Source: Atopomonas hussainii
GTDB lineage: Bacteria > Pseudomonadota > Gammaproteobacteria > Pseudomonadales > Pseudomonadaceae
Direction of reading: 5' to 3'
DNA length: 64,000 nt
Assembly (NCBI RefSeq): GCF_900109735.1
Contig: NZ_FOAS01000015.1
Coordinates: 1-64,000 of the forward strand
This document shows, in pieces, positions 20,597 to 44,397 of the stretch; the first letter of the stretch is position 1, and each line of letters starts with the position of its first letter. Position numbers and translations under genes: made by a program. The notes under the pieces are model-generated. The model was not told the DNA's origin. It worked only from the letters and a program-made list of their open reading frames with translations, and searched no databases.

Positions 20597-21100
20597 TCAG
20601 AAACCACCCACCGATAAAGCCAGTCGTGCGTCGGCTTTACCCGGTTCGGTACGGGTTAGATTCACCTCTTCAACCACCACGCCGCGCTCTTGCAGCTGGC
20701 CGAGCCACGCCAGCAGCGCCGTTACGGTGACCGCTTCCAGCTGCACTTCAATCCAGCCGGGTTGCTGCACATCCAAACGCTGCAAACGTAAACCTTGCTG
20801 CTGGGCGCTGGCGGTGAGTAAACCTTGCAGTTCATCGGCTGCCAGCACCACGGGGCTGGTAACTGAACGCCCCTGCAACTGCGGAGCATTCTGGCTGATC
20901 AAGGCGTGCAAGGTGCGCTGGCGCTGAAAGTCTTCACTGGCGCTGTGCATATAACGCTGCACCGGCAACCAAGCCAACACGTACACACAGACCAACAGCA
21001 AAAAGCCACTCAAGGCCGCCAAAGCAAAACGATCACGCGCCGGTAGCGCTTGCCAACGCTGCGCCAACGGGGACTGTTGCAGCTGGGTTTGCCAACTCAT
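20597..21100 (-). CDS. gspM: T2SS inner-membrane platform protein GspM (XcpZ)
   Basis: A 167-residue bitopic membrane protein. A short cytoplasmic N-terminus (LAQRWQALPARDR) is followed by a single helix (about 28-46, LAALSGFLLLVCVYVLAWLP) and a periplasmic ferredoxin-like domain. It stabilises GspL and couples the GspE motor to the pseudopilus. Last gene of the gspE-M operon; its ATG overlaps the gspL stop by four bases. Confidence 0.9.
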   Translation of the reverse strand: MSWQTQLQQSPLAQRWQALPARDRFALAALSGFLLLVCVYVLAWLPVQRYMHSASEDFQRQRTLHALISQNAPQLQGRSVTSPVVLAADELQGLLTASAQQQGLRLQRLDVQQPGWIEVQLEAVTVTALLAWLGQLQERGVVVEEVNLTRTEPGKADARLALSVGGF

Positions 21101-22257
21101 GCCTCACCTCCAATGCTGACCCGCGCCACCACGCGATCGCCTTCGCGCGAGGCCGAGCCCACCTGCACCGGCAAGCCTTGTTCGGTAAATTGCCGGCGTA
21201 GTGCCTCTAAGGCGGCAAAGTCACTGGCTTCAACTTCAAAACTTAAGCTATCGGTGCTGCGCCGATAATCCAGCTGCACGACCCGCACGCCACTGCCTTG
21301 CTGCAATAAGCCAGCCCCCACTTGCTGTAGCTGAGCCAAGAAACCGCTGCTGGTGCTGCCCTCGCCTTGACGCAGGTGCTCACGGAATTGCGCCTCTAAA
21401 TTGACGATGCGCCGGTCCTCGGGAAATAGCTGCTGATATTGCGCCGTGCTTTGCGCCGCCAAACTGTCGGCCTGCTGTTGCAGATATATCCCTTGGCCCA
21501 AGTTAAAGCCCCATTGCAGCACCGCCCACAAGGCTGCCAATGCGGCCACCGGCAACCAGCGCCGTGCTGGCTGCACAGTGCTTTGCGGGGTAAACAGGCC
21601 CTGCGCCAGCTCAATAGCATCCGCCTGCGGTTGGTTAGCACTCAGCTCAATGGCCTCTGGCCAATCACTGGGCGCCTCACCGGCAAAGCGAAAGCCCGGC
21701 GCCGCTTGCACGGCTAGCTGCTGACGCAACATGCTGGCCGTTAGGGCAATCACTTCGCCTTGCGCGTTACGCCACACGGCACGCCCGTGGCTGACACACC
21801 ACGCCGCTGTTGCCTCATCAGGCAGGGGGAATTGCTCGGCATCCAGCTGAATGCTCTGCACCGCCACCTTAAAAGGCAGCCCCTGCAAAGCCGTCAAAGT
21901 TGCCTGCAAAAGGTTTTTGCGCACTGCCACCACGCGCGTTAAACCGGCGCTATTGGCTTCGCCGATGGCCAAGTGCAGGTTGTCGATATCTTCGGCCAGT
22001 TGTTCTTCCACGGCGTACGCCAAGGCCTGTTGCAGCCAGCGCTGTTTGCGCGTGGGCAGCTCAACATGCAGCACGGTGGCCGCCTCAACCGGCAAAATCA
22101 GCCGCAGCGTCAGTGCCGCTTCGGCACATTCGGCCACCGCCGCTTGCCAAGTCTGCCAGTTGCCTTGGCCAGCGCCTTGCGCGTGCCACCAGCGCAACTG
22201 GCAATCGGCCAACGCCACCCCTTGCGCCCACTCGGGGCTCACACTTAATTGCCACAT
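21097..22257 (-). CDS. gspL: T2SS platform protein GspL (XcpY)
   Basis: A 386-residue protein with a cytoplasmic actin-like-fold domain (about 1-235) that recruits GspE, a transmembrane helix (about 240-260, WLPVAALAALWAVLQWGF) and a periplasmic ferredoxin-like domain that pairs with GspM. AAGGAG lies ten bases before the ATG. Gap of eight bases to gspK upstream and a four-base overlap with gspM downstream. Confidence 0.92.
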   Translation of the reverse strand: MWQLSVSPEWAQGVALADCQLRWWHAQGAGQGNWQTWQAAVAECAEAALTLRLILPVEAATVLHVELPTRKQRWLQQALAYAVEEQLAEDIDNLHLAIGEANSAGLTRVVAVRKNLLQATLTALQGLPFKVAVQSIQLDAEQFPLPDEATAAWCVSHGRAVWRNAQGEVIALTASMLRQQLAVQAAPGFRFAGEAPSDWPEAIELSANQPQADAIELAQGLFTPQSTVQPARRWLPVAALAALWAVLQWGFNLGQGIYLQQQADSLAAQSTAQYQQLFPEDRRIVNLEAQFREHLRQGEGSTSSGFLAQLQQVGAGLLQQGSGVRVVQLDYRRSTDSLSFEVEASDFAALEALRRQFTEQGLPVQVGSASREGDRVVARVSIGGEA

Positions 22258-22265
22258 GGCTTGCT

Positions 22266-23231
22266 TTACTCCTTGGTTGGCCGCGCTTCAGGCAGCGGCC
22301 AGCTCTGCGCGAAATCCCGCGCTAATACATACACTTTGCCCTGCGCGTCGCGCTGTAACAGCGACTGCAACACGCGTTCGCCATCGCCTAAGCGCACACG
22401 GCTGCTTACACGAAAAAACTGACTACCAACACTTAAGCCTTGCGCCTGCACCCCCATGCCCGCCAACGCCGACTGGCTTAAAAAACCCGCCACATCGGGA
22501 TAGCCCTGCGCACCGCGTGCCGCCACTAACGCTTTAGCGCTATCAACACTTAACGGCTCGGCCAGCGTGCTTAATAGCAATGCGCTGGCGGTATTGATAT
22601 TCAATGCAGCATCGGCCGGCAAAGCCGCCACCCAAGGCTTTAGCTTGCGCCAATCGAGTTCGGTCATGCCCAACAGCAGGCGTAACTCGCTGGCATCGCT
22701 GAGCAAGCGATTAGCCGCCCGATACGGCGGCTGCTCCAACAAATACGCGCCGTCTTCGGCACCGTTTTCGCCGCTGACTTCTTGATCGGCATCCAGCCAA
22801 TCGACCAAACGCTGTGCATACGGGGCCTGTATCTCTAAGCGGCGCAATAAGCGCTCGAAGCGCGCCAAGGCGATGCTGTCGACTTGCTTGTCGCGCACTA
22901 GGCTATTGAGGTTAAAACGCCCGGCCAGGTCTTCAATATGCACGCTGATCGTACCGCCATCGACCGGATAATCCGGCAGCGGTTTGGCCCACGCTTCTTG
23001 TAGGTGATCGAGCGGCTGATTGGCATTTCCTGCTTTGGCATCGCGCTGCAAGATGGCTTGTGCCAAGCGCTCGCCACCCAAGGCGTAATGCATGGCTTGG
23101 CGCTGGGTAAGCGGCACGCCGACGGCGCGAATGGTGAGTTGCTGACGGCTGATCATCGCCGCGCACACCACAGTCACCAGTGCCACAATCAGCAGCACGG
23201 TAATCAGCGCGACACCCGCCTGACGCTTCAT
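22266..23231 (-). CDS. gspK: T2SS minor pseudopilin GspK (XcpX)
   Basis: A 321-residue minor pseudopilin. Prepilin leader MKRQAG followed by VALITVLLIVALV; it lacks the Glu at mature position 5, as usual for GspK, which caps the pseudopilus tip with GspI and GspJ. The large alpha domain is inserted after the helix, including LVDWLDADQEVSGENGAEDG with Ca-binding-type acidic residues. Its ATG overlaps the gspJ stop by four bases. Confidence 0.93.
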   Translation of the reverse strand: MKRQAGVALITVLLIVALVTVVCAAMISRQQLTIRAVGVPLTQRQAMHYALGGERLAQAILQRDAKAGNANQPLDHLQEAWAKPLPDYPVDGGTISVHIEDLAGRFNLNSLVRDKQVDSIALARFERLLRRLEIQAPYAQRLVDWLDADQEVSGENGAEDGAYLLEQPPYRAANRLLSDASELRLLLGMTELDWRKLKPWVAALPADAALNINTASALLLSTLAEPLSVDSAKALVAARGAQGYPDVAGFLSQSALAGMGVQAQGLSVGSQFFRVSSRVRLGDGERVLQSLLQRDAQGKVYVLARDFAQSWPLPEARPTKE

Positions 23232-23947
23232 GGCTGCGCCCCTTGGCCGTTCGCCGGGTTTTGCCCAGCCCCGTTATCGCCGCCATTGCTATTGCCACCC
23301 GCTTGGCCGGGCAAGGTCGGCGGCGTGCCATCGGGCAAGCGCCATTGGCGCACTAGCTCACCATAATGCGGGTGCTCAAAGGTAAAACGCAGGGCTTTGG
23401 GCAACGATGGCACGCTCTGACTGGGATCACTGCCGCTGCGCACATCATTAACCGGCCATTGGCTGTGCCACTGATTTTGCTCATCCAGCACCTCGATCTG
23501 CGCGCTGCGAAGCTCGCTGAGTACGCGCTGCACTTGCGGTAACGAGTCCTGCGCTTGGTCGAGTACTTGCCAGTACTGGCGGCTTAGCTCGCCCGTTTGG
23601 AATTGCCAGCGTACGCGCTGCAAATCACTACGGCGGCGCCCCAGCGGGTTACTCCAGCCGGCACGTGTCCACTCCAGCTGCACCCGGCCATCGCCCGATT
23701 GCAGTACCAAGGCCGGCAACTCGTCGCCATAGGCGGCACGCACCGGACGGGCGCGCAGTTGCAGTAAGTCACGCTCGAACACTTCCAGCGCACGCACTAA
23801 CTCGCGCAAGCGCTGCTCTTGCGCTTTGATGCGCTGATCGCTGGTCAGCACGGTGTCCATCATGCGGTAGGTCGCCAGCCCCACGAGGGCAAAAATGCTG
23901 ATGGCGATCATCACCTCAAGCAGCGTAAAGCCCGCACTACGCCTCAC
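23228..23947 (-). CDS. gspJ: T2SS minor pseudopilin GspJ (XcpW)
   Basis: A 239-residue prepilin-like protein with leader MRRSAG cleaved before FTLLEVMIA (Glu5 present). The C-terminal tail (from about 215) is rich in Gly and Asn (GQAGGNSNGGDNGAG), longer and less structured than the globular core, an unusual low-complexity end. It forms the tip complex with GspI and GspK. Four-base overlaps with the genes on both sides. Confidence 0.92.
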   Translation of the reverse strand: MRRSAGFTLLEVMIAISIFALVGLATYRMMDTVLTSDQRIKAQEQRLRELVRALEVFERDLLQLRARPVRAAYGDELPALVLQSGDGRVQLEWTRAGWSNPLGRRRSDLQRVRWQFQTGELSRQYWQVLDQAQDSLPQVQRVLSELRSAQIEVLDEQNQWHSQWPVNDVRSGSDPSQSVPSLPKALRFTFEHPHYGELVRQWRLPDGTPPTLPGQAGGNSNGGDNGAGQNPANGQGAQP

Positions 23948-24327
23948 GAGCCTGCCCCAATAAAGCCGATCAGGCTTTGCACGGCGCGCTCTTCAATCGG
24001 TTCGCTGCCGCCCTTGTTGGGCTTAGCCGCCACCCACACAGTCACGCGCAGCATGCCCGGCTCGCTGGTGGTTTCGATCAGCTCTAGGCGCTGCCAGCGG
24101 CGCCCGGCGTAATCCAATTCGGTTTGCTCTCGCCCTGGCTGCACATTAGGCGTCCACGCCAGTTCTTGCAGACGGTTATCGGCTAACCAACTGGCTAAGG
24201 TCTTATCTTCTAAACGAATCGCGTTACTCACACTGCGCCCGCTGGCGACCAAGATCACCGCCGCCACGGTGGCAAACACCGCCAAAGCCACCAGCACTTC
24301 GAGCAAGGTAAAGCCGCGCGATTTCAC
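23944..24327 (-). CDS. gspI: T2SS minor pseudopilin GspI (XcpV)
   Basis: A 127-residue prepilin-like protein, leader MKSRG then FTLLEVLVALAVFA with Glu5. Characteristic NRLQELAWTP downstream of the helix. It nucleates the pseudopilus tip and recruits GspJ and GspK. Four-base overlaps with gspH and gspJ. Confidence 0.93.
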   Translation of the reverse strand: MKSRGFTLLEVLVALAVFATVAAVILVASGRSVSNAIRLEDKTLASWLADNRLQELAWTPNVQPGREQTELDYAGRRWQRLELIETTSEPGMLRVTVWVAAKPNKGGSEPIEERAVQSLIGFIGAGS

Positions 24328-24848
24328 TTCAGCAGCTCCAACTCGGCGAGGTTGAAGCCATCACCGCTAATCAACCAGCGCGACTCTTTGCTGGCGGTCA
24401 GGGTTAAGCGAAACGGGCTAAATTCGCCGCTGGAGAGAAACAACAGCTGTGGCGCGTTGGCGCTGGTTGCGGTGCTGCTTGCTTGTTCATCGTCATCCGT
24501 TGGCGCGGCGAGCTGCCACGGCTGGCCTTCTAGTTCCAAGCTAAAGCGCAGCGGCTCGGGCAGTTGCAAGGCCGGTAGCTGGGGCATGGCTTGCCATTCT
24601 TGCTGGCTGGCTTGCCATTGCCAAAGGCTTAGCCGCTGCGCCTCGACCCGCACCCCGTAATCGCGCCCGGCCAACAGCGCTTCATCGAGTAGCAGCTGCA
24701 ATAACTGCTGACTGCGCTGCGCTTCTTGCGCGTAGCGGCGCTCCGGGCTGATCAAGCCGCTGGAAAAGCTCACCAAGCTCACCAGCGTGCCGATGATGAC
24801 CAGCACCACCAGCAGCTCGATCAGGGTGAAGCCGCGTGCCGCGCGCAT
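24324..24848 (-). CDS. gspH: T2SS minor pseudopilin GspH (XcpU)
   Basis: A 174-residue prepilin-like protein, leader MRAARG then FTLIELLVVLVIIG with Glu5, and a beta-rich globular part ending in WLISGDGFNLAELELL. It connects the tip complex to the GspG shaft. Six-base gap to gspG and four-base overlap with gspI. Confidence 0.92.
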   Translation of the reverse strand: MRAARGFTLIELLVVLVIIGTLVSLVSFSSGLISPERRYAQEAQRSQQLLQLLLDEALLAGRDYGVRVEAQRLSLWQWQASQQEWQAMPQLPALQLPEPLRFSLELEGQPWQLAAPTDDDEQASSTATSANAPQLLFLSSGEFSPFRLTLTASKESRWLISGDGFNLAELELLK

Positions 24849-24854
24849 GGCGGT

Positions 24855-25280
24855 TTAGATGTCCCAGCTGCCGATGTCGGCGTTCAGGTCGCTGCCGCCT
24901 TCTTTGCCGTCGGCGCCTTGCGAGTACAGGTCAAACGCGCCTTTGCTGCCCGGCTGCAGGTACAGGTACGGGTTGCCCCAGGGGTCGACGGGCAGCTTTT
25001 TCAGGTAACCGTCTTTGTTCCAGTTTTTCGCCGCTGGGTTGCCGGAAGGCTTAGTCACCAGCGCTTCAAGGCCCTGCTGGGTGCTTGGGTAGCTGTGGTT
25101 ATCCAGCTTGTACATATCCAGCGCGGCGGCGATGGCTTTGATGTCGTTCTTGGCCACGGTGACTTTGGCCTGATCGGGGCGGCTCATTACTTGCGGCACC
25201 ACCAGCGCGGCGAGAATACCCAAGATGACCACCACGACCATGATTTCAATCAGCGTAAAACCGCCTTGTTTGCGTTGCAT
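24855..25280 (-). CDS. gspG: T2SS major pseudopilin GspG (XcpT)
   Basis: A 141-residue major pseudopilin. Leader MQRKQGG is cut before [14 protein letters not shown], with Glu5 for subunit packing and methylation. The C-terminal [12 protein letters not shown] and acidic Asp-rich end are the calcium-site signatures of GspG. Many copies make the piston-like pseudopilus. The processing peptidase (PilD/GspO) is not in this window. Confidence 0.96.
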
Positions 25281-25283
25281 GCG

Positions 25284-26498
25284 TTACCCCACCAGTTGGT
25301 TAAGCGACAGAATCGGTAAAAGAATCGCGAGCACGATGACCAGCACCACCGCGCCCATAAATACCAGCATAAAAGGCTCGAAGAGACCGACCATCAGGGC
25401 GATTTGCGCCGATAGATCGTTCTCTTGCGTGCGCGCGGCACGGCCGAGCATGTTGTCCAACTCGCCGGAGCGTTCGCCGCTGGCGAGCATGTGTAAGAGC
25501 ATCGGCGGGAAGTCGTCAGTAGCCTCCAGCGCGCGAGTCAGGCTCGAGCCTTCACGGACTTTCTGCGCCGCTTGCTCGACGCGCCCGCGAATCGCCATGT
25601 TGCCGATCACCGCGGCGGCAATGCCCAAGCCATCCACCAACGGCACGCCGCTGCGGCTCAGAATCGCCAAGGTAGAGGCAAAGCGTGCGGTGTGCGCGGC
25701 GCGTGACAGGCGCCCAATCAGCGGCAAGCGCAATAAAAACTCATCCCAACGCAGGCGCAGCGCCGGGGTCTTGAGCAGTTGTTTTAGGCCCAGCACACCT
25801 GCAATGGCGAGTAGCACCACCAGCCAGCCCCAGCCTTTAACAAAGTCACTGGCGGCGATCAGCCCTTGGGTCAGCCCCGGCAATGCTTGCCCGGTGTTAA
25901 CGAATACCTTGACCACATCCGGCACCACATAGCCGAGCAAAAAGCCGACGATGGACAGCGAGGCGATCATCAAAATCACCGGATACATCAGCGCCAGCTG
26001 AATTTTCTGCCGCGACTGATAGCGCTGCTCGGTGTAGTCGGCCAGCTGCTCTAGCACTAAGCCCAAATGCCCAGAATGCTCACCGGCGGCCACGGTGGCG
26101 CGGTACAAATCGGGAAAGGCGCTGGGGAATTCTTTCAAGCTCGCCGCCAAGCTGTGGCCTTCCAACACGCGGCCACGTACCGCCAGCAGCATGCTTTTGA
26201 CTTTGCCGGTGGTGGATTGCGCGGCGGCGGCGCGCAGGGCTTCTTCAATCGGTAGCGCAGCCTGCACCAGCGTGGCCAGCTGGCGGGTCAGCAGAGCCAA
26301 ATCACGCGCCGACAGGCCACGGCTAAAGCCCAAGCGCGGGCTACCGGGTTGCGACTTGCTGCGCGCGGGTTGTACCTCCAGCGGCGAGAGTTTTTGCTCG
26401 CGCAGCTGCTGGCGCGCCTGACGGGCGCTGTCGGCCTCCAGCACGCCCTTGCGCTGACGGCCCGCGCTGTCGAGGGCGATGTATTCAAAGGCAGCCAT
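25284..26498 (-). CDS. gspF: T2SS inner-membrane protein GspF (XcpS)
   Basis: A 404-residue polytopic protein with two repeated cytoplasmic four-to-six-helix domains (about 70-175 and 275-380) and three membrane helices (about 170-195, 220-245, 375-400). N-terminal MAAFEYIALDSAGRQRKG is the family start. It forms the platform centre that engages GspE. Three bases from gspG and 70 bases after gspE. Confidence 0.95.
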   Translation of the reverse strand: MAAFEYIALDSAGRQRKGVLEADSARQARQQLREQKLSPLEVQPARSKSQPGSPRLGFSRGLSARDLALLTRQLATLVQAALPIEEALRAAAAQSTTGKVKSMLLAVRGRVLEGHSLAASLKEFPSAFPDLYRATVAAGEHSGHLGLVLEQLADYTEQRYQSRQKIQLALMYPVILMIASLSIVGFLLGYVVPDVVKVFVNTGQALPGLTQGLIAASDFVKGWGWLVVLLAIAGVLGLKQLLKTPALRLRWDEFLLRLPLIGRLSRAAHTARFASTLAILSRSGVPLVDGLGIAAAVIGNMAIRGRVEQAAQKVREGSSLTRALEATDDFPPMLLHMLASGERSGELDNMLGRAARTQENDLSAQIALMVGLFEPFMLVFMGAVVLVIVLAILLPILSLNQLVG

Positions 26499-26568: not shown

Positions 26569-28068
26569 TTACTCCTCACGGGTAACGCGCAGCACTTCTT
26601 CGAGGGTGGTGACGCCGGCCAATACATTGCGCCGGCCATCTTCGCGGATGCTCGGGCCCAAGGTGCGGGCGTGGCGCAGCATGTCTTGCTCGCTGGCGTT
26701 GGCATGGATCTGCGTGCGCAGGGTGTCGTCAAACACCACCAGCTCGTAGATGCCGGTTCGGCCGCGATAGCCCAATTGGCGGCAGTCATCGCAACCGCAG
26801 GCGCGGTAAAGGGTTGGCGGGTTGCTGGCTGGTACGTTGAGTACCGCGCACTCGGCTTCATCGGCCTGATAAGCCTGCTTGCAGCTGGGGCACAGTACGC
26901 GCACCAAGCGCTGGGCGAGCACGCCGAGCAACGATGACGACAGCAAGAACGGCTCCACGCCCATATCCACCAAGCGCGTGACTGCACCGATGGCGCTGTT
27001 AGTGTGCAGGGTCGAGAGCACTAAGTGGCCGGTCAGCGAGGCCTGCACGGCGATTTCAGCGGTTTCTTTATCGCGAATCTCACCGACCATCACCACGTCC
27101 GGGTCTTGGCGCAGAATGGCGCGTAGGCCACGGGCAAAGGTCATGTCCACCTTGCTGTTGACCTGCGTTTGGCCGATGCCTTCGAGGTGGTATTCGATCG
27201 GGTCTTCGACGGTGAGAATGTTGCGCGAGCGGTCGTTCAAGGTGACCAAGCTGGCGTACAAGGTGGTGGTTTTCCCCGAGCCGGTGGGGCCGGTGACCAG
27301 AATAATGCCGTGCGGCTTGGCGAGGATGTCTTGCATCAGCGCGCGGTCGCGGGCGCTCATGCCCAAGTGCGGCAGGCTCAGGCGCCCGGCTTGTTTATCC
27401 AGCAGACGCAGCACCACGCGTTCGCCGTGGTTGGACGGCAGGGTAGACACACGGATATCCACCTCGCGCCCGGCCAAACGCAGCGAGATACGACCATCCT
27501 GCGGTACGCGCTTCTCGGCGATATCCAAGCGCGCCATCACCTTAATACGTGAGACCAGTAAGGTGGCCAGCTCGCGGCGTGGCTGCAGTACCTCACGCAG
27601 AATGCCGTCGATGCGAAAGCGCACCACTAAGCGTTTCTCGAAGGTTTCGATATGGATATCCGAGGCGTTGTCTTTAATCGCCTCGCTCAGGATGGCGTTG
27701 ATCAGGCGAATGATCGGCGCGTCGTCTTCCTGCTCCAGCAGGTCTTCGGTTTCTTGCACTTGCTCAGCGAGGCTGGCCAAGTCGAGGTCAGCGCCTAGGC
27801 CTTCGGCCACTTGCATGGCGCCGGAGGAATCCTGTTGATACAAAGCGCCGAGCGCTTCGTTAAAAGCCGCTTCTTCGAGGGGCTGCCACGGTAACGCTTG
27901 GCCAACCAAACGCTGGACTTCCGCCAATACGCTTAAGCCCACCCCTGGCTTGTGACAAATCTGTAATTGCCCATCACTGGTGCGCAATAACACGCCGTGA
28001 CGGCGCGCAAAGGCATACGGTAAACGGGTGGCCACAAGGCCTGCGCTGGCTGAGGCGATTGCATTCAT
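26569..28068 (-). CDS. gspE: T2SS assembly ATPase GspE (XcpR)
   Basis: A 499-residue secretion ATPase. The N-terminal GspL-binding region is about 1-140. The catalytic domain carries Walker [14 protein letters not shown], the Asp box EDPIEY, Walker B region [12 protein letters not shown] and the His box TLHTNSA. The four zinc cysteines are present as CPSC and, further on, CDDC. The start at 28068 was chosen by similarity ([10 protein letters not shown], then [11 protein letters not shown]); a frame-compatible ATG at 28113 would add 15 residues, and neither has a good ribosome site. First gene of the gspE-M operon, divergent from gspCD as in xcp of P. aeruginosa. Confidence 0.95.
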
Positions 28069-28232
28069 AGGCAAGGTGTTCTTTCTGGGCGTTTTGACGC
28101 CGCTTATTGTCATGGCAATGACTGCCGCTTACCGCGCACTAGAGCATATTTGGCCAATGCTGACCACCACTCAATTGTGCGGTATCCCGCTGTAGCGCAA
28201 TGCGGCAGTCTTGTTATGATGCGGGACTGCCC
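28069..28232. promoter_or_regulatory. Divergent control region of the two gsp operons
   Basis: 164 bp between gspE (minus) and gspC (plus). TATGAT at 28215-28220 is a good -10 for gspC; no clear -35 is seen. If this is the real -10, transcription would begin only a few bases before the ATG at 28233, favouring a later gspC start. No lux-box-like palindrome was recognised. Confidence 0.4.
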
Positions 28233-28922
28233 ATGAAGGCAACCTATAAAAATAATCAAGGCCTACGCCTAATTCGATGGAGTGAAACCTTGACGCCTGC
28301 GCGCCTCACCCGGCTCAAGTCGCTTGCCCCCACCCTCGCCTGTTTGGCGTTGGTGGTATTGATGAGTTTGTCGCTGACCTGGCAAGCCCTGCAATTGCTG
28401 CGTGACCTACGTAGCCCCGTTAGCGCCCCCACCTTGCTCGAAAGCCGCCAAGGCACCAGCAGCGCAGGCCAAGTGCCCGTGCATGAACTGTTTGGCGCCG
28501 CGCCGGTGGCGAACATTCCCACGCCCGAGACCAACCTACAGCTGACCTTAGAAGCCAGCTTTGTGCACCCCGACAGCCGCCGCAGTGCCGCGATCATCCG
28601 CGATCAAAATAACAAAGCGCAGCGCTATGTAATTGATCAAGAGATTGCCAGCGGCGTGACCTTGCTCGAGGTACACGCCGACCACGTGGTGCTGGGCCGT
28701 GGCCTAGCCCGGGAAAGCTTGTATTACCCCACTAAGCGACCTAGCGGCATCAGCAGCTACCAAAGCGCGTCCGTCTATGAACAAGCCGACGTCACGCCCG
28801 ACTTAGAACAGCTGCAAGACGAAAACTATCAATTGCTGCGCGAACGCATGGAAAGCTTGCGCCAAGAAATGAGCGCCGCCGGCATTACCGAAACCTCCAC
28901 CGAGACCGAATCCAGCCCATGA
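28233..28922 (+). CDS. gspC: T2SS inner-membrane connector GspC (XcpP)
   Basis: A 229-residue bitopic protein. Cytoplasmic N-terminus, one membrane helix (about residues 34-55, LACLALVVLMSLSLTWQALQ), then the periplasmic HR domain (VHELFGAAP, LTLEASFVHPDSRRSAAII, VLGRGLARESLYY) that contacts the N0 domain of GspD, and a C-terminal coiled-coil instead of a PDZ domain (QLQDENYQLLRERMESLRQEM), as in XcpP. The start is uncertain: a TTG at 28290 follows GGAG with better spacing and would still keep the membrane helix. The stop overlaps the gspD ATG by four bases. Confidence 0.9.
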   Translation: MKATYKNNQGLRLIRWSETLTPARLTRLKSLAPTLACLALVVLMSLSLTWQALQLLRDLRSPVSAPTLLESRQGTSSAGQVPVHELFGAAPVANIPTPETNLQLTLEASFVHPDSRRSAAIIRDQNNKAQRYVIDQEIASGVTLLEVHADHVVLGRGLARESLYYPTKRPSGISSYQSASVYEQADVTPDLEQLQDENYQLLRERMESLRQEMSAAGITETSTETESSP

Positions 28923-31252
28923 CTTTGCCCTCTTCTCGCCCGCTGCTGTCATCCCTCGCACTGGCCATTAGTCTGACGGTCGCAGCCGGTACGGCCGCGC
29001 CCGTGTTCGCCGCTAGCACCGCCGGCATTCATAGTCAGGGCCAAGCCAGCGGCGAAGAACGCTGGACCATCACCATGAAAGACGCCGACATTCGCGAGTT
29101 TGTCGAGCAAGTGGCCAGCATTACCGGCGAGACCTTTGTCGTCGACCCGCGGGTGAAAGGCCAAGTATCGGTGATTTCCTCAACGCCGCTGAGTTTGAGC
29201 GAGGTGTATCAGCTGTTCTTGTCGGTGATGAACACCCACGGCTTTACCGTGATCACCCAAGACGAACAGTCGCGCATCGTGCCCAGCAGCGAAGCCAAAG
29301 CCGAGGGCAATTTTGGTCGCGCCGCGCCAGACAACTTAGAAACCCGGCTGATTCAGGTGCAGCACAACGCCGCTGCCGAACTGATCCCCATTATTCGCCC
29401 GCTAGTACCGCAATACGGCCACTTGGCCGCCGTGGTATCGGCCAACGCCATCATCATCAGCGACCGCCGCGCCAACATTGCGCGCATTGAGCAGCTGATT
29501 CGCGAGGTGGATCAAAGCAACGCCCGCGATTACAGCGTGATCACCCTGCAACATGCTTGGGTGATGGATGCCGCCGAAGTACTGAATAACTCGCTCAATC
29601 GCGGCCAAGCCAAAGGCACCAGCAACGTGCAGGTGATTGCTGACAGCCGCACTAACCGCTTGATTCTGCTCGGCCCCGATCAGGCCCGCGCCAAACTCGC
29701 GGCGCTGGCCCGCTCGCTGGATACCCCCAGCGCACGCTCGGCCAACACCCGAGTGATTCGCCTGCGCCATAACGATGCCAAAGCACTGGCCGAAACCTTG
29801 GGCGATATCACCGAACAACTGAAGCAGGGCTCCAGCGAAGGCTCCAACCAGCAGAAACTGCTGGTGCGCGCCGATGAAAGCCTCAATGCCTTGATCATTT
29901 TGGCCGAGCCCGACTTAGTCGCCACCATCGAAGATATCGTGCGTCAGCTCGACGTACCGCGCGCGCAGGTACTGGTCGAGGCAGCGATTGTTGAAGTCGC
30001 TGGCGACATTACCGACGCCCTCGGCGTGCAGTGGGCCATCGATGCCCGTGGCGGCACGGGCGGCGCTGCCGGGGTTAACTTCGCCAACACCGGCATCTCG
30101 GTCGGCACGGTGATTTCAGCGATTGCCAACGACAAGATTCCCGACAACCTAAGCCTGCCCGATGGCGCGATTGTCGGCATTGGCAGCGACAACTTTGGCG
30201 CGCTAATCACTGCGCTATCGGCCAATAGCAAGAGCAACCTGCTCTCCACCCCCAGCCTGCTGACGCTGGACAACCAAAAGGCGGAGATTCTGGTCGGCCA
30301 AAACGTGCCCTTCCAGACCGGCTCGTACACCACCGATGCGGCGGGTTCCAGCAACCCGTTCACCACCATCGAGCGTAAAGATATCGGCGTAAACCTTAAG
30401 GTCACCCCACACTTGAACGAAGGCCGCACCCTGCGTTTGGAAGTGGAGCAAGAGATCTCCTCGATTGCACCGACCACCACCTTAAGCTCGCAAGCGGTGG
30501 ATTTGGTCACCAACAAGCGCTCGATCAAGACCACCATTTTGGCTGAAGACGGCCAAGTGATCGTGCTCGGCGGTTTGATTCAAGATGACGTGGTCACCTC
30601 AGACTCGAAAGTGCCGCTGCTGGGCGACATTCCGATTATTGGCCGCCTGTTCCGCTCCACCCGCGACCAGCATGTGAAGCGCAATCTGATGGTCTTCCTA
30701 CGCCCGAGCTTAGTGCGCGATGGTGCCGGGCTTGCCGCGCTGTCGGATAAAAAGTACCGCGACATTCAGATCATCAACCAAGGCAACAGCGAGCGCGCGC
30801 CGAATATTCTGCCCAGCCAACCGCAGCAGCTGTTCGACGGGCGCAATAACGTACCGAGTATCGACCTGCGCCAGCCCAGCCAAGCGCCGCAAAGCCAGCA
30901 CACCCCCGCTGCACAACCGCAAGCCGTGCCAACCCCCGAGCCGGTTTACGCCGGCCACGGACAAGGTGGCGACAGCCTCGCCAATAGCCGCGACGACAGC
31001 GAAAGCAGCCACGAAATCGACAGCACGCGCTACAGCATCGCCTTAGTGGAAGGCCGTGGCGAAGCCTATATGCAAGCGCTGATCAAACAGCACCCGACGC
31101 AGCCGCTGCACCTCAAGCGCAGCCAACGTAATGGGCAGGACTGGTTTACCGTGCTCTACGGCGACTACCCGCAGGCCGAGCTGGCCGAACTGGCCAAGCG
31201 CGACCTGCCCGCCAACTTGCCCAATCAACGCAGCAAAGTGGTACCCATTTAA
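28919..31252 (+). CDS. gspD: T2SS outer-membrane secretin GspD (XcpQ) with C-terminal SPOR-like domain
   Basis: A 777-residue secretin. Signal peptide to about residue 31, N0 domain (about 46-120), N1-N3 repeats (about 140-350), then the secretin beta-barrel with LLSTPSLLTLDNQKAEILVGQNVPF and VPLLGDIPIIGRLFR. After the barrel come a Pro/Gln/Ser-rich linker (about 615-703) and, at 704-777, RYSIALVEGRGEAYMQALIK then GQDWFTVLYGDYPQ, which matches the SPOR fold pattern for binding denuded peptidoglycan. XcpQ of P. aeruginosa is about 658 residues, so the extension is roughly 120. Translationally coupled to gspC. Confidence 0.93.
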   Translation: MTLPSSRPLLSSLALAISLTVAAGTAAPVFAASTAGIHSQGQASGEERWTITMKDADIREFVEQVASITGETFVVDPRVKGQVSVISSTPLSLSEVYQLFLSVMNTHGFTVITQDEQSRIVPSSEAKAEGNFGRAAPDNLETRLIQVQHNAAAELIPIIRPLVPQYGHLAAVVSANAIIISDRRANIARIEQLIREVDQSNARDYSVITLQHAWVMDAAEVLNNSLNRGQAKGTSNVQVIADSRTNRLILLGPDQARAKLAALARSLDTPSARSANTRVIRLRHNDAKALAETLGDITEQLKQGSSEGSNQQKLLVRADESLNALIILAEPDLVATIEDIVRQLDVPRAQVLVEAAIVEVAGDITDALGVQWAIDARGGTGGAAGVNFANTGISVGTVISAIANDKIPDNLSLPDGAIVGIGSDNFGALITALSANSKSNLLSTPSLLTLDNQKAEILVGQNVPFQTGSYTTDAAGSSNPFTTIERKDIGVNLKVTPHLNEGRTLRLEVEQEISSIAPTTTLSSQAVDLVTNKRSIKTTILAEDGQVIVLGGLIQDDVVTSDSKVPLLGDIPIIGRLFRSTRDQHVKRNLMVFLRPSLVRDGAGLAALSDKKYRDIQIINQGNSERAPNILPSQPQQLFDGRNNVPSIDLRQPSQAPQSQHTPAAQPQAVPTPEPVYAGHGQGGDSLANSRDDSESSHEIDSTRYSIALVEGRGEAYMQALIKQHPTQPLHLKRSQRNGQDWFTVLYGDYPQAELAELAKRDLPANLPNQRSKVVPI

Positions 31253-34727: not shown

Positions 34728-37472
34728 TTATTGGTCTTCCATGCGCTGGTGCTTGAAGAACACGCCGCTGTCGCCAAAGGCCGACAGGTTAAAGGCAGAA
34801 CTCAAGCTCAACTCACCGACCTTCACCGCACTGTTGCGGCGCTGGCTGGCGTAACGATTGGTCAACGAGGGGAAGATCGAGGTTTTGATCGGCTCGGAGG
34901 TGGCGTACAGGTCATACACCACAGTGCCTGCTTGCAGCTGCAACAGGTCGGCACGGAAGTCGTGCGCCGCGCTGCTGAAACGGTTCTTCACTTCGGCACG
35001 CGGCACAAAGTAGATCTGTGTCGGCACTTTGGCTTGCGCTACGGCTTGGCCTTGTGCAGTCACTTCGGCCATATCTGCCAAGTTCAGCTGCGTGGGCTTG
35101 CTGCTCACCAGCGAGAACAGCGTGGTGGTGCCCAGTGTTTCGTTGGCTTCTACCTGCACGTACTGCGACAGCTCGTTGGCAAAGAAGTTGTAGTTACCGC
35201 CTTGGCCCGACAGGGTGTACAGCGCCGAGACGTTTTCTGACGGCTTGCCATCGACAAACGCCTTCCACGCCAAGCCCGGTGCAAAGCCACGATCAGCCGG
35301 GTCACCGGTGACCGACAAGCGCAGCAGGCCGTGCTCAGCGCCTTGGAACAAGCCGGTGTAAGGGTTGCCCGGCACGGCGGTGAACTTCACCTTAGCCAAG
35401 GCGCCATAGGGGTGAATCGGCTTGCTGTGGCCAACAGGCGCCACGTCGGTGCGCTCTTTGACTTTGGTCCACAACACCGAGCTGATCAGCCCACCGATAT
35501 CCACTTTTTTCAGCGCCGGTACTTCATCGGCCTTGTACTGCGTGCGCAGGGCACCGTTAACCCACAGGTGCTCTTGCTTAGCGGCGGCCGGCCAAGTTTC
35601 GTAATCGGCCGGAATCTTCAGGCCCCACGGTTTAAAGGCGTTGTCGATACCAGTCAGGCTAGCCAGCAGTTGCGGATTGTGGCGCTTGATCACGTCCACC
35701 ATGGTGGTGTGCTCTACCCAGTCGTAACCTTCTTGGGTGTAGATCGCTGGACGGTAGTCCGAGGTGAAGAAGCGGTCGGCCATCAAACGACGCGAGGCGT
35801 TCATGATGAAGATCTGGAAGGCGGTTTCGCCGAAGGCAAAGCCCTCAGGACGCACGGTTTCGGCCAGCATACCGACCAAGGTATCGATCTTCTCGATGTC
35901 GTTGCTGTACAGCTGCTTAAGCTTGTTCAGGGTTACCGTTTCGGTGGTCAGGTCTTCGAACTTGGTGATCGGCTTTAAGCCAATCTGACGGCGGAACTCG
36001 TTATAACGCGGCACGCCACGCTCACGGTCACGCAGTACGTCGATCATCGCCAAGTCGATCTGCCCTACCAGCGGAATCGACAAGTTACGCAGAAAGCCCG
36101 GGAAGTTGTTCAGCGTCAGCGAACCAGGGTGGGTGATACCGAAGGAGTACCACAGGCGCTCGCTGCCTTCACGCTGCAGCATGGCTTCCGCGTCGCTATC
36201 TAAGGTGTCTTGCAGGGCGACAACGTTCTTCGGCGTGTTACTGCCGATGTCGTACACCTGCACGTTGTCACGCATCAGCGGGTGCATGCGGTACACGGCG
36301 ACAAACTCTTCGGTGAGAGTAAACGGCACACCGTAGTTGTTCGGCGCGGTGGAGCCCACAATACCGCCCAAGGCATGCGACAAGGCATTATTGCCGGCGC
36401 TATCGGCTGCGTTAGGGTCGAAACCGAGAATGGCCTTCACAAAGGAGTCTGACTTGGCCAAGTCTTCACGCAGCTTGCGCGCTTGGGCTTGGTAGTCATC
36501 ACGCGGGCCACCTTGGCCGAGCAAACCCCACCAGTTGGCGTACATAGCACGCTCAGTCACTGGGTTGGCGATGATCGCCGGGGTCCATTCCACGGTGTGA
36601 ATTTTCGCCATCAGCGCCGAGTTGATCAGACGCGCTTTGTCGTACAGCCACTGATCGCTCTTGCCGGGGTATTTCTGCGCCAGCATGTCGGCAATCGCGT
36701 TGTGCTCTTTGGTGAACATCTGGTGCAGCATCGACAGACCAATCCACCAGTTATTACTAAACCCGGTGACCGGCTTACCGGACAGCAGCTCGGTCGGCAG
36801 CATGCCGTTGGCGTTGATCTTTAAGCGCCCGCCTTCAAAGGAACGCACGCTGTCGCTGACGGCTTTGCTGCTGCCATACAGCTGCGAACCATCCCACCAG
36901 TGGGTGTTGTGGTTACGGAAGGTTTTGGGCTTGCCCGCATCGGCACCAGTACGGGTTGGGTCAGGCTGAGTGCGCTTGACGCTCAGCGAGCCAGAACCCA
37001 GCACATCGCCCGCCGGCAGCGGCACTTGAATCGGGTCGCCTTCGGCATTAGGGCCGTGGTCGAACCAGTCGTGGGTCATGAACTGAATCCACGCGGCGGC
37101 AATAAAGTTAACGCTGGTGGCCGGCTTGAATTCTTGCCGGGCCATCAGTTGGTTACTGACTTCGCGGGGGTTGGGGCTCAGCAAGGTGCTGGTTTCGCCC
37201 TGCCCGGCAGCTGGATCGACGTTACGGCCAAAGCGGCGGTACACCGAGCCCTCAGCGGGGTTACTGAGAATGTTACAGGTGCCGTCTTCGGTACGCGCCG
37301 TCAAACTGCGCTCGTCACACTGAATGTCAGCGTTGTACGGGCCGTAGTTTTCTAGGTCAAAGAGGTTGTTTTCGAACAGCTCTTGCCGCTCTACAGCCAG
37401 CACAATCAAGCCAGCCATCACGCCTAACGTGCCCAGTTTAGTGAGCGCAGGCCAGGTTACCCATGGCGTCAT
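34728..37472 (-). CDS. Alpha-dioxygenase/cyclooxygenase-like haem peroxidase
   Basis: A 914-residue animal-haem-peroxidase superfamily protein. A hydrophobic N-terminal segment (about 9-27) suggests membrane anchoring or export. The peroxidase fold runs to about 610: distal His134 in FMTHDWFDHG, EHNAIADML at 256-264, and VYRMHPLM with Tyr394 and proximal His397. The Y-x-x-H spacing and the TEEFVAVYRMH context match plant alpha-dioxygenases and the Tyr385/His388 pair of cyclooxygenases, where the Tyr radical oxygenates fatty acids. A C-terminal region of about 300 residues, beta-rich at its end, is of unknown role. ATG 37472 follows AGGAG; a GTG one codon earlier is possible. Downstream of a LuxR-type gene on the same strand. 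Confidence 0.85.
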   Translation of the reverse strand: MTPWVTWPALTKLGTLGVMAGLIVLAVERQELFENNLFDLENYGPYNADIQCDERSLTARTEDGTCNILSNPAEGSVYRRFGRNVDPAAGQGETSTLLSPNPREVSNQLMARQEFKPATSVNFIAAAWIQFMTHDWFDHGPNAEGDPIQVPLPAGDVLGSGSLSVKRTQPDPTRTGADAGKPKTFRNHNTHWWDGSQLYGSSKAVSDSVRSFEGGRLKINANGMLPTELLSGKPVTGFSNNWWIGLSMLHQMFTKEHNAIADMLAQKYPGKSDQWLYDKARLINSALMAKIHTVEWTPAIIANPVTERAMYANWWGLLGQGGPRDDYQAQARKLREDLAKSDSFVKAILGFDPNAADSAGNNALSHALGGIVGSTAPNNYGVPFTLTEEFVAVYRMHPLMRDNVQVYDIGSNTPKNVVALQDTLDSDAEAMLQREGSERLWYSFGITHPGSLTLNNFPGFLRNLSIPLVGQIDLAMIDVLRDRERGVPRYNEFRRQIGLKPITKFEDLTTETVTLNKLKQLYSNDIEKIDTLVGMLAETVRPEGFAFGETAFQIFIMNASRRLMADRFFTSDYRPAIYTQEGYDWVEHTTMVDVIKRHNPQLLASLTGIDNAFKPWGLKIPADYETWPAAAKQEHLWVNGALRTQYKADEVPALKKVDIGGLISSVLWTKVKERTDVAPVGHSKPIHPYGALAKVKFTAVPGNPYTGLFQGAEHGLLRLSVTGDPADRGFAPGLAWKAFVDGKPSENVSALYTLSGQGGNYNFFANELSQYVQVEANETLGTTTLFSLVSSKPTQLNLADMAEVTAQGQAVAQAKVPTQIYFVPRAEVKNRFSSAAHDFRADLLQLQAGTVVYDLYATSEPIKTSIFPSLTNRYASQRRNSAVKVGELSLSSAFNLSAFGDSGVFFKHQRMEDQ

Positions 37473-37554
37473 CACACGTTCTCCTACTCTTGTTGTTGTT
37501 CGGCCTGACCGAGGGCTCAGGCAGCGTCAAAGAGTAAGAAGCGACGCCACTAAA

Positions 37555-43815: not shown

Positions 43816-44397
43816 TTACGGGGCAAAACGCACCACAAAACCGTTTAAACCACGCTGCTTTTGCAGTTGATCGCGCAGTTTGGCGGCTTCGGCTTTATCA
43901 ATCACGGGGCCCACAAACACCCGCTGCATCTGCCCGTGAGTGCGTGAGTAACCGTTGTAGCCCTTGCTACGCAGGTCGGTGACCAGCGCATCGGCACTAG
44001 CTTTATTCGACAGGCTCGCCAATTGCACCGACCAACCATCACTTAAGCCATTGTTATCCAAAGGCGCGGCAGGGGCTTTTGGTGGTTCCGCAGGCTTAAC
44101 CTCTGCGATGGGTTCTGGGGGGCTAACAGGCTCAGCAACCGGCATCGGCTCTGGCACTTCGTCCAGCACGGGCTGATCCGCGTATTCAGCTTGCGAGCCT
44201 TCCGCCGGGGGTAGCTCTTGCACTGGCTCTGGGGTCATATCAGGCAATACCGCTGGTTTGGGCATTGGCGGCACTTCGACACGCACCTCACGCACGTCGT
44301 CTTGGCGGGACAGCAGCATGGGTAGAAAAATCACCGCCAGCCCCAACAACACCACGGCGCCAACGATGCGCTGCTTTAACCCTTGTTCCAATGCCAT
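43816..44397 (-). CDS. SPOR-domain cell-division protein, DedD-like
   Basis: A 193-residue bitopic protein: short cytoplasmic tail, helix at about 10-28 (IVGAVVLLGLAVIFLPMLL), a Pro/Glu-rich periplasmic linker (about 40-120) and a C-terminal SPOR domain (about 120-193, WSVQLASLSNKASADAL, then VFVGPVIDKAEA). It binds denuded glycan at the division septum. By position between folC and cvpA it is the counterpart of DedD. Three bases after folC. Confidence 0.92.
   Translation of the reverse strand: MALEQGLKQRIVGAVVLLGLAVIFLPMLLSRQDDVREVRVEVPPMPKPAVLPDMTPEPVQELPPAEGSQAEYADQPVLDEVPEPMPVAEPVSPPEPIAEVKPAEPPKAPAAPLDNNGLSDGWSVQLASLSNKASADALVTDLRSKGYNGYSRTHGQMQRVFVGPVIDKAEAAKLRDQLQKQRGLNGFVVRFAP

Follow-up and report, generated by a model that had tools for sequence, protein, structure and literature searches.

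A C-terminal SPOR domain on the type II secretion secretin XcpQ of Atopomonas hussainii as a candidate cell wall anchor

The secretin of the type II secretion system (T2SS) lies mostly within the periplasm, as described together with data on its S-domain and pilotin (PMC6532946). The ways in which T2SS secretins cross the cell wall and keep hold of it are understood only in part, and the known ones vary from one bacterium to another (GspA, OutB, LspD). Wall anchoring within this class of systems has been described for OutB and LspD (PMC9239104), the latter being a T2SS secretin of Legionella with a SPOR-like domain at its N-terminus, before the N0 domain (PMC6617341, PMC9239104). SPOR domains bind glycan strands from which the stem peptides have been removed, a form abundant at septa (PMC6895207). 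In Pseudomonas aeruginosa, AMIN domains direct another secretin, PilQ, to division sites and poles (PMC5285504). Here we describe a T2SS secretin with a SPOR domain at its C-terminus, encoded in a stretch of 64,000 nucleotides from Atopomonas hussainii (contig NZ_FOAS01000015.1, positions 1 to 64,000; hereafter the window). Its gene, gspD or xcpQ (28919..31252, + strand), is an open reading frame for a protein of 777 amino acids (TIGR02517, 517.6 bits, cut-off 351), the sole T2SS GspD found in the genome. An earlier note, made from the DNA letters alone, had named no precedent for a SPOR domain on GspD, which is corrected by Legionella LspD: SPOR on a T2SS secretin is already known, there at the N-terminus. 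No C-terminal SPOR domain on a T2SS secretin was found in the open literature, subscription literature lying outside the search.

The same note had read residues 704-777 of GspD (31028-31252, including the stop codon) as a complete SPOR domain, and both the sequence and the predicted fold bear this out, with domain boundaries at residues 702-777 (31022..31249, +). Taken alone, the score of the tail against the Pfam SPOR family PF05036 (gathering score 21) is borderline: residues 702-764 were matched with 20.2 bits in a scan of the full-length protein, with 21.8 bits when the last 177 residues were used and with 23.5 bits, above the cut-off and without internal stop, in a search of the whole genome. 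Ten tails of other GspDs reached 18.0-37.7 bits when they were of the window type and 64.7-75.9 bits when they belonged to a second type, and a profile of 12 related tails, from which the window sequence had been excluded, found the window tail at 96 bits. AlphaFold2 predicted residues 690-777 with a mean local confidence score (pLDDT) of 88, most of the domain exceeding 90, as a ribonucleoprotein (RNP)-like fold in the order beta-alpha-beta-beta-alpha-beta; the model of full-length GspD, with a mean pLDDT of 50, is usable for the SPOR and N-terminal domains only. A structure search with the tail model returned the SPOR domain of P. aeruginosa RlpA first (Z 9.4, 72 residues, root-mean-square deviation (rmsd) 2.6), the matched RlpA structures including the complex with denuded glycan, followed among the SPOR proteins by Bacillus subtilis CwlC (Z 7.8), DedD (7.4) and Escherichia coli DamX (6.9). 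SPOR domains of these four proteins were among the six best structural rows; the model also matched 6ozd_B (Z 9.3, rmsd 5.1), and all remaining rows had Z values of at most 4.6. In a profile comparison with solved chains, the SPOR domain of DamX (2LFV, E 7.5e-8) came closest. Genome search, related tails, leave-out profile, predicted fold and structural matches together rule out that the SPOR assignment is a chance or frame artefact.

Upstream of the tail, the N0 domain (residues 53-116; 29075..29266, +; PF21305, 89.8 bits) is followed by three Secretin_N stretches (PF03958), the secretin pore domain (residues 432-600; 30212..30718, +; PF00263, 173.3 bits) and the XcpQ C-terminal region or S-domain (residues 601-652; 30719..30874, +), which was delimited by alignments with several GspDs, L037 and L038 among them, and is 67% identical to L037, the GspD of a congener. 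The Pro/Gln/Ser-rich linker described in the earlier note is present between secretin and SPOR domain (residues 653-701, about 50 amino acids; 30875..31021, +) and absent in the congener. XcpQ of P. aeruginosa is shorter, as had been stated: its solved secretin 5WLN (624-residue chain), among solved structures the one nearest to the secretin body (E 8e-271), aligns to residues 45-649, and nothing in it matches the tail. The XcpQs of many Pseudomonas that lack a tail stop at about ...LFDGxxxPAVDLRQ, and in the window protein this stretch is likewise present and leads into linker and SPOR domain. Since the ordinary S-domain is kept, the tail comes on top of it, an arrangement that argues against the suggestion that the tail replaces a pilotin. 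We consider such a replacement highly improbable, even though the genome contains no match to AspS-type pilotins and a match to the PulS/OutS type only below threshold. The absent pilotin match says little, because no pilotin has been established for P. aeruginosa XcpQ either (PMC3542185); moreover, the congener XcpQ without tail has the same cluster layout, and a wall-binding domain gives no account of outer-membrane insertion.

Among named relatives, Atopomonas sediminilitoris is the closest. Over residues 26-651, the congener GspD is 91% identical to that of the window and ends where the window linker starts; in both, gspD is followed by a MAPEG gene, and the SPOR-encoding DNA is gone from the congener without remnant. 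Within Pseudomonadaceae, tails of the window type occur in 16 of 348 genomes from six genera, the window genome included. The other 15, from five further genera, carry the tail on a second GspD in addition to an XcpQ without window-type tail. The tail-less congener and the family survey thus rule out that the tail is universal in pseudomonad XcpQ, a result that the earlier note had named as refuting its reading; most pseudomonad XcpQs have no tail. Seven of eight loci with a second GspD of this type (about 18-19 kb each) lack gspE-M nearby, and one contains a full cluster. The neighbours of these second gspDs are predicted secreted enzymes, namely an M66/TagA-type lipoprotein with ricin-B domain, a reprolysin-like metallopeptidase with gspC, or a pectate lyase. 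No C-terminal SPOR domain on GspD was seen outside Pseudomonadaceae among 390 genomes of the order and 398 of the phylum, in a search whose thresholds favoured close relatives and in which not every long frame was read. An apparent tail in Pseudomonas sp. 2FG (L063) lies after the stop codon, in unrelated reading frames, and was discarded as spurious.

Some of these loci show features of their own. The lipoprotein gene with ricin-B domain stands beside the SPOR-tailed gspD in L094, L097-L099, L104 and L105, forming a recurrent gspD-enzyme cassette, which also occupies one end of a contig assigned to viruses (L236:646-5994, IMG/VR contig IMGVR_UViG_3300022664_000199), either as host flank or as cargo. 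A reprolysin-like metallopeptidase is encoded near the orphan gspD of L093 (L093:5029-8151), and an extra gspC lies near the orphan gspD in L095, L096 and L100-L102, as in L093. A different extension was seen in L117 and L146 (G495), where an 881-residue GspD has a Pro/Ala-rich C-terminal tail of about 200 residues that ends in repeated REIRTxSGNxY, with no SPOR signature recognizable by eye.

A second kind of SPOR tail is found on XcpQ itself in 30 of 52 matching genomes of one Pseudomonadaceae genus (code g16), and two genomes (G247 and G253) carry both kinds. Because, among the SPOR proteins of the window genome, the g16 tail is nearest to DedD and the window-type tail nearest to DamX, the C-terminal SPOR tails of Pseudomonadaceae GspDs most likely arose at least twice. 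The repeated gain of a SPOR domain at the same place of XcpQ argues for a useful function. The DedD-like SPOR protein that is the nearest own-genome relative of the g16 tails is encoded in the window as well (43816-44397, - strand; 194 amino acids) and is the best SPOR match of the genome.

The most likely function of the tail is that of a wall anchor, as the earlier note had proposed. In this protein, a flexible linker and a DamX-like SPOR domain follow the normal XcpQ C-terminus, and because nearly the whole T2SS secretin is periplasmic, the tail of each of the 15 subunits could reach the peptidoglycan. Fifteen individually weak SPOR contacts might then tether the ring to stripped glycan strands, strong binding being achieved by number. 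As glycan free of stem peptides would be richest at the septum and the new poles, the tail could be a built-in wall anchor and perhaps a placement signal, as the AMIN domains are for PilQ, a parallel that had been drawn before and is supported by the literature (PMC5285504). It would work beside the S-domain and not in its stead. On balance, we think it probable, by a modest measure, that the window tail tethers the secretin 15-mer to amidase-processed peptidoglycan, on top of a complete XcpQ.

We infer an anchor function for the tail family; for the window protein it is less certain, and the main doubt arises from a single residue. A glutamine that is nearly universal in SPOR domains (RlpA Q270, DamX Q351, FtsN Q251) contacts N-acetylmuramic acid and N-acetylglucosamine and is required for the septal localisation of DamX and FtsN (PMC6895207). 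Several observations weigh against an anchor in the window protein: in the alignment, this first-strand position is occupied by Ala708; elsewhere in the DamX-like tail family it holds Asn in the closest relatives and Gln, Lys or Arg in others; and no counterpart of the aromatic W416 of DamX was seen in the window tail. Furthermore, no second tail-bearing Atopomonas sequence was found, so that the signature of purifying selection on the SPOR domain (ratios of non-synonymous to synonymous substitution rates, dN/dS, of 0.05-0.16 in related tail pairs) comes from tails of relatives and not from that of the window. The loss of the glutamine and the variation at this position (N, Q, K, R or A) would also fit a SPOR fold that has given up glycan binding and has a protein as its partner, for instance another component of the envelope, a protein of the division machinery or a substrate; a role related to the substrate is conceivable in view of the secreted-enzyme genes that adjoin orphan tailed GspDs. 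We regard such a switch as rather unlikely, since SPOR domains contact glycan mostly through their backbone and through basic residues, the latter differing between domains (PMC6895207), and R737 of the window tail, the basic residue that matches DamX R380, is kept. In addition, several DamX-like tails of other GspDs and all 28 DedD-like tail sequences recovered retain the glutamine. The window tail and the DamX SPOR domain also have the motif R-N-G-Q-x-W in common.

With regard to the history of the tail, body and tail of the window GspD gave different trees. In the body tree, the window GspD groups with the congener (support 100/100), and both a single clade of all window-type GspDs (p-AU 0.0007) and a grouping of the window with L205/L098 (p-AU 0.003) are rejected. 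In the tail tree, the window groups with L094/L097 (93/88), and a grouping with L065/L066 is rejected (p-AU 0.02). Both tests concern the same lineage, because L094 shares its genome with L205, and L097 (G128) is closely related to L098 (G060); the discordance favours a transfer of the tail to the window XcpQ. We therefore moderately favour a recombination event that brought in the tail from a second GspD of the DamX-tail lineage, whose members usually lie outside a T2SS cluster. Alternatively, the tail may go back to an ancestral SPOR-tailed GspD and have disappeared from most XcpQs. Two points count against the transfer: the tail tree comprises 81 columns, with clade tests that were chosen after other results had been seen, and by parsimony a history in which an ancestral tail disappeared on the XcpQ stem and also in A. 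sediminilitoris is as short as one with a transfer. The composition of the tail matches that of the rest of gspD, indicating that any transfer was not recent. A further explanation is that the tail came along by accident when the gene recombined with an orphan gspD and serves no purpose, in line with the 91% identical congener XcpQ that does without it, the disagreement of the two trees and the loss of the functional glutamine. This we judge to be more doubtful still than a protein-binding role, as reading frame and predicted fold are intact, the composition argues against a very recent arrival, related tails are under purifying selection and tails were gained more than once. Returning to the anchor function, we put forward as a tentative generalization, which we would rather doubt than assert, that C-terminal SPOR domains could be recurrent, swappable wall anchors of T2SS secretins in Pseudomonadaceae. 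They would have been recruited at least twice, from different division proteins (one DamX-like, one DedD-like), and would be carried mostly by extra GspD genes, each moving together with a secreted enzyme of its own. Recombination would have brought them to the window XcpQ, where they would determine the site along the cell at which the T2SS is assembled.

The window gspD sits in a complete divergent xcp cluster. Upstream on the same strand lies gspC/xcpP (28200..28919, +; T2SSC PF11356, 60.9 bits), and the divergent operon comprises gspE/xcpR (26569..28113, -; TIGR02533, 713 bits), gspF/xcpS (25284..26498, -; TIGR02120, 512 bits) and gspG-H-I-J-K-L-M (20597..25280, -). Within the latter, GspL was identified by TIGR01709 and the others by gene order and blastp, gspG-I against L037 and G-M via the full cluster of L104. 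This divergent gene layout is that known from the xcp genes of Pseudomonas. For T2SSB/GspB, matches in the A. hussainii genome stayed below the cut-off. Adjoining the xcp cluster, a gene for an animal-type haem peroxidase of 915 amino acids (34728-37475, -) was noted, and the same neighbourhood is kept in L037.

XcpQs with and without a wall-binding domain in close relatives represent a natural experiment, the same body with or without anchor. Thereby, anchoring and placement of the T2SS become directly testable, and secretin placement is linked to amidase-processed septal peptidoglycan. Compared by description with Legionella LspD, whose SPOR-like domain precedes N0, the window GspD has its domain after the S-domain and is not of the LspD type, as its only SPOR match lies at residues 702-764. 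P. aeruginosa XcpQ (5WLN), in contrast to the window GspD, ends after the S-domain without linker or SPOR domain. E. coli DamX (2LFV), the closest solved SPOR domain by profile, is a division protein and not a secretin, and has Gln351 where the window protein has Ala708. Most GspDs with a DamX-like tail resemble, in gene placement, the XphA/XqhA (PaQa) pair of P. aeruginosa, an extra GspC-GspD pair outside the xcp locus that is used by a hybrid Xcp system (PMC6567927). PilQ is like the window GspD a secretin with wall-binding domains of its own, but these belong to the AMIN family, are N-terminal and serve in the type IV pilus system.
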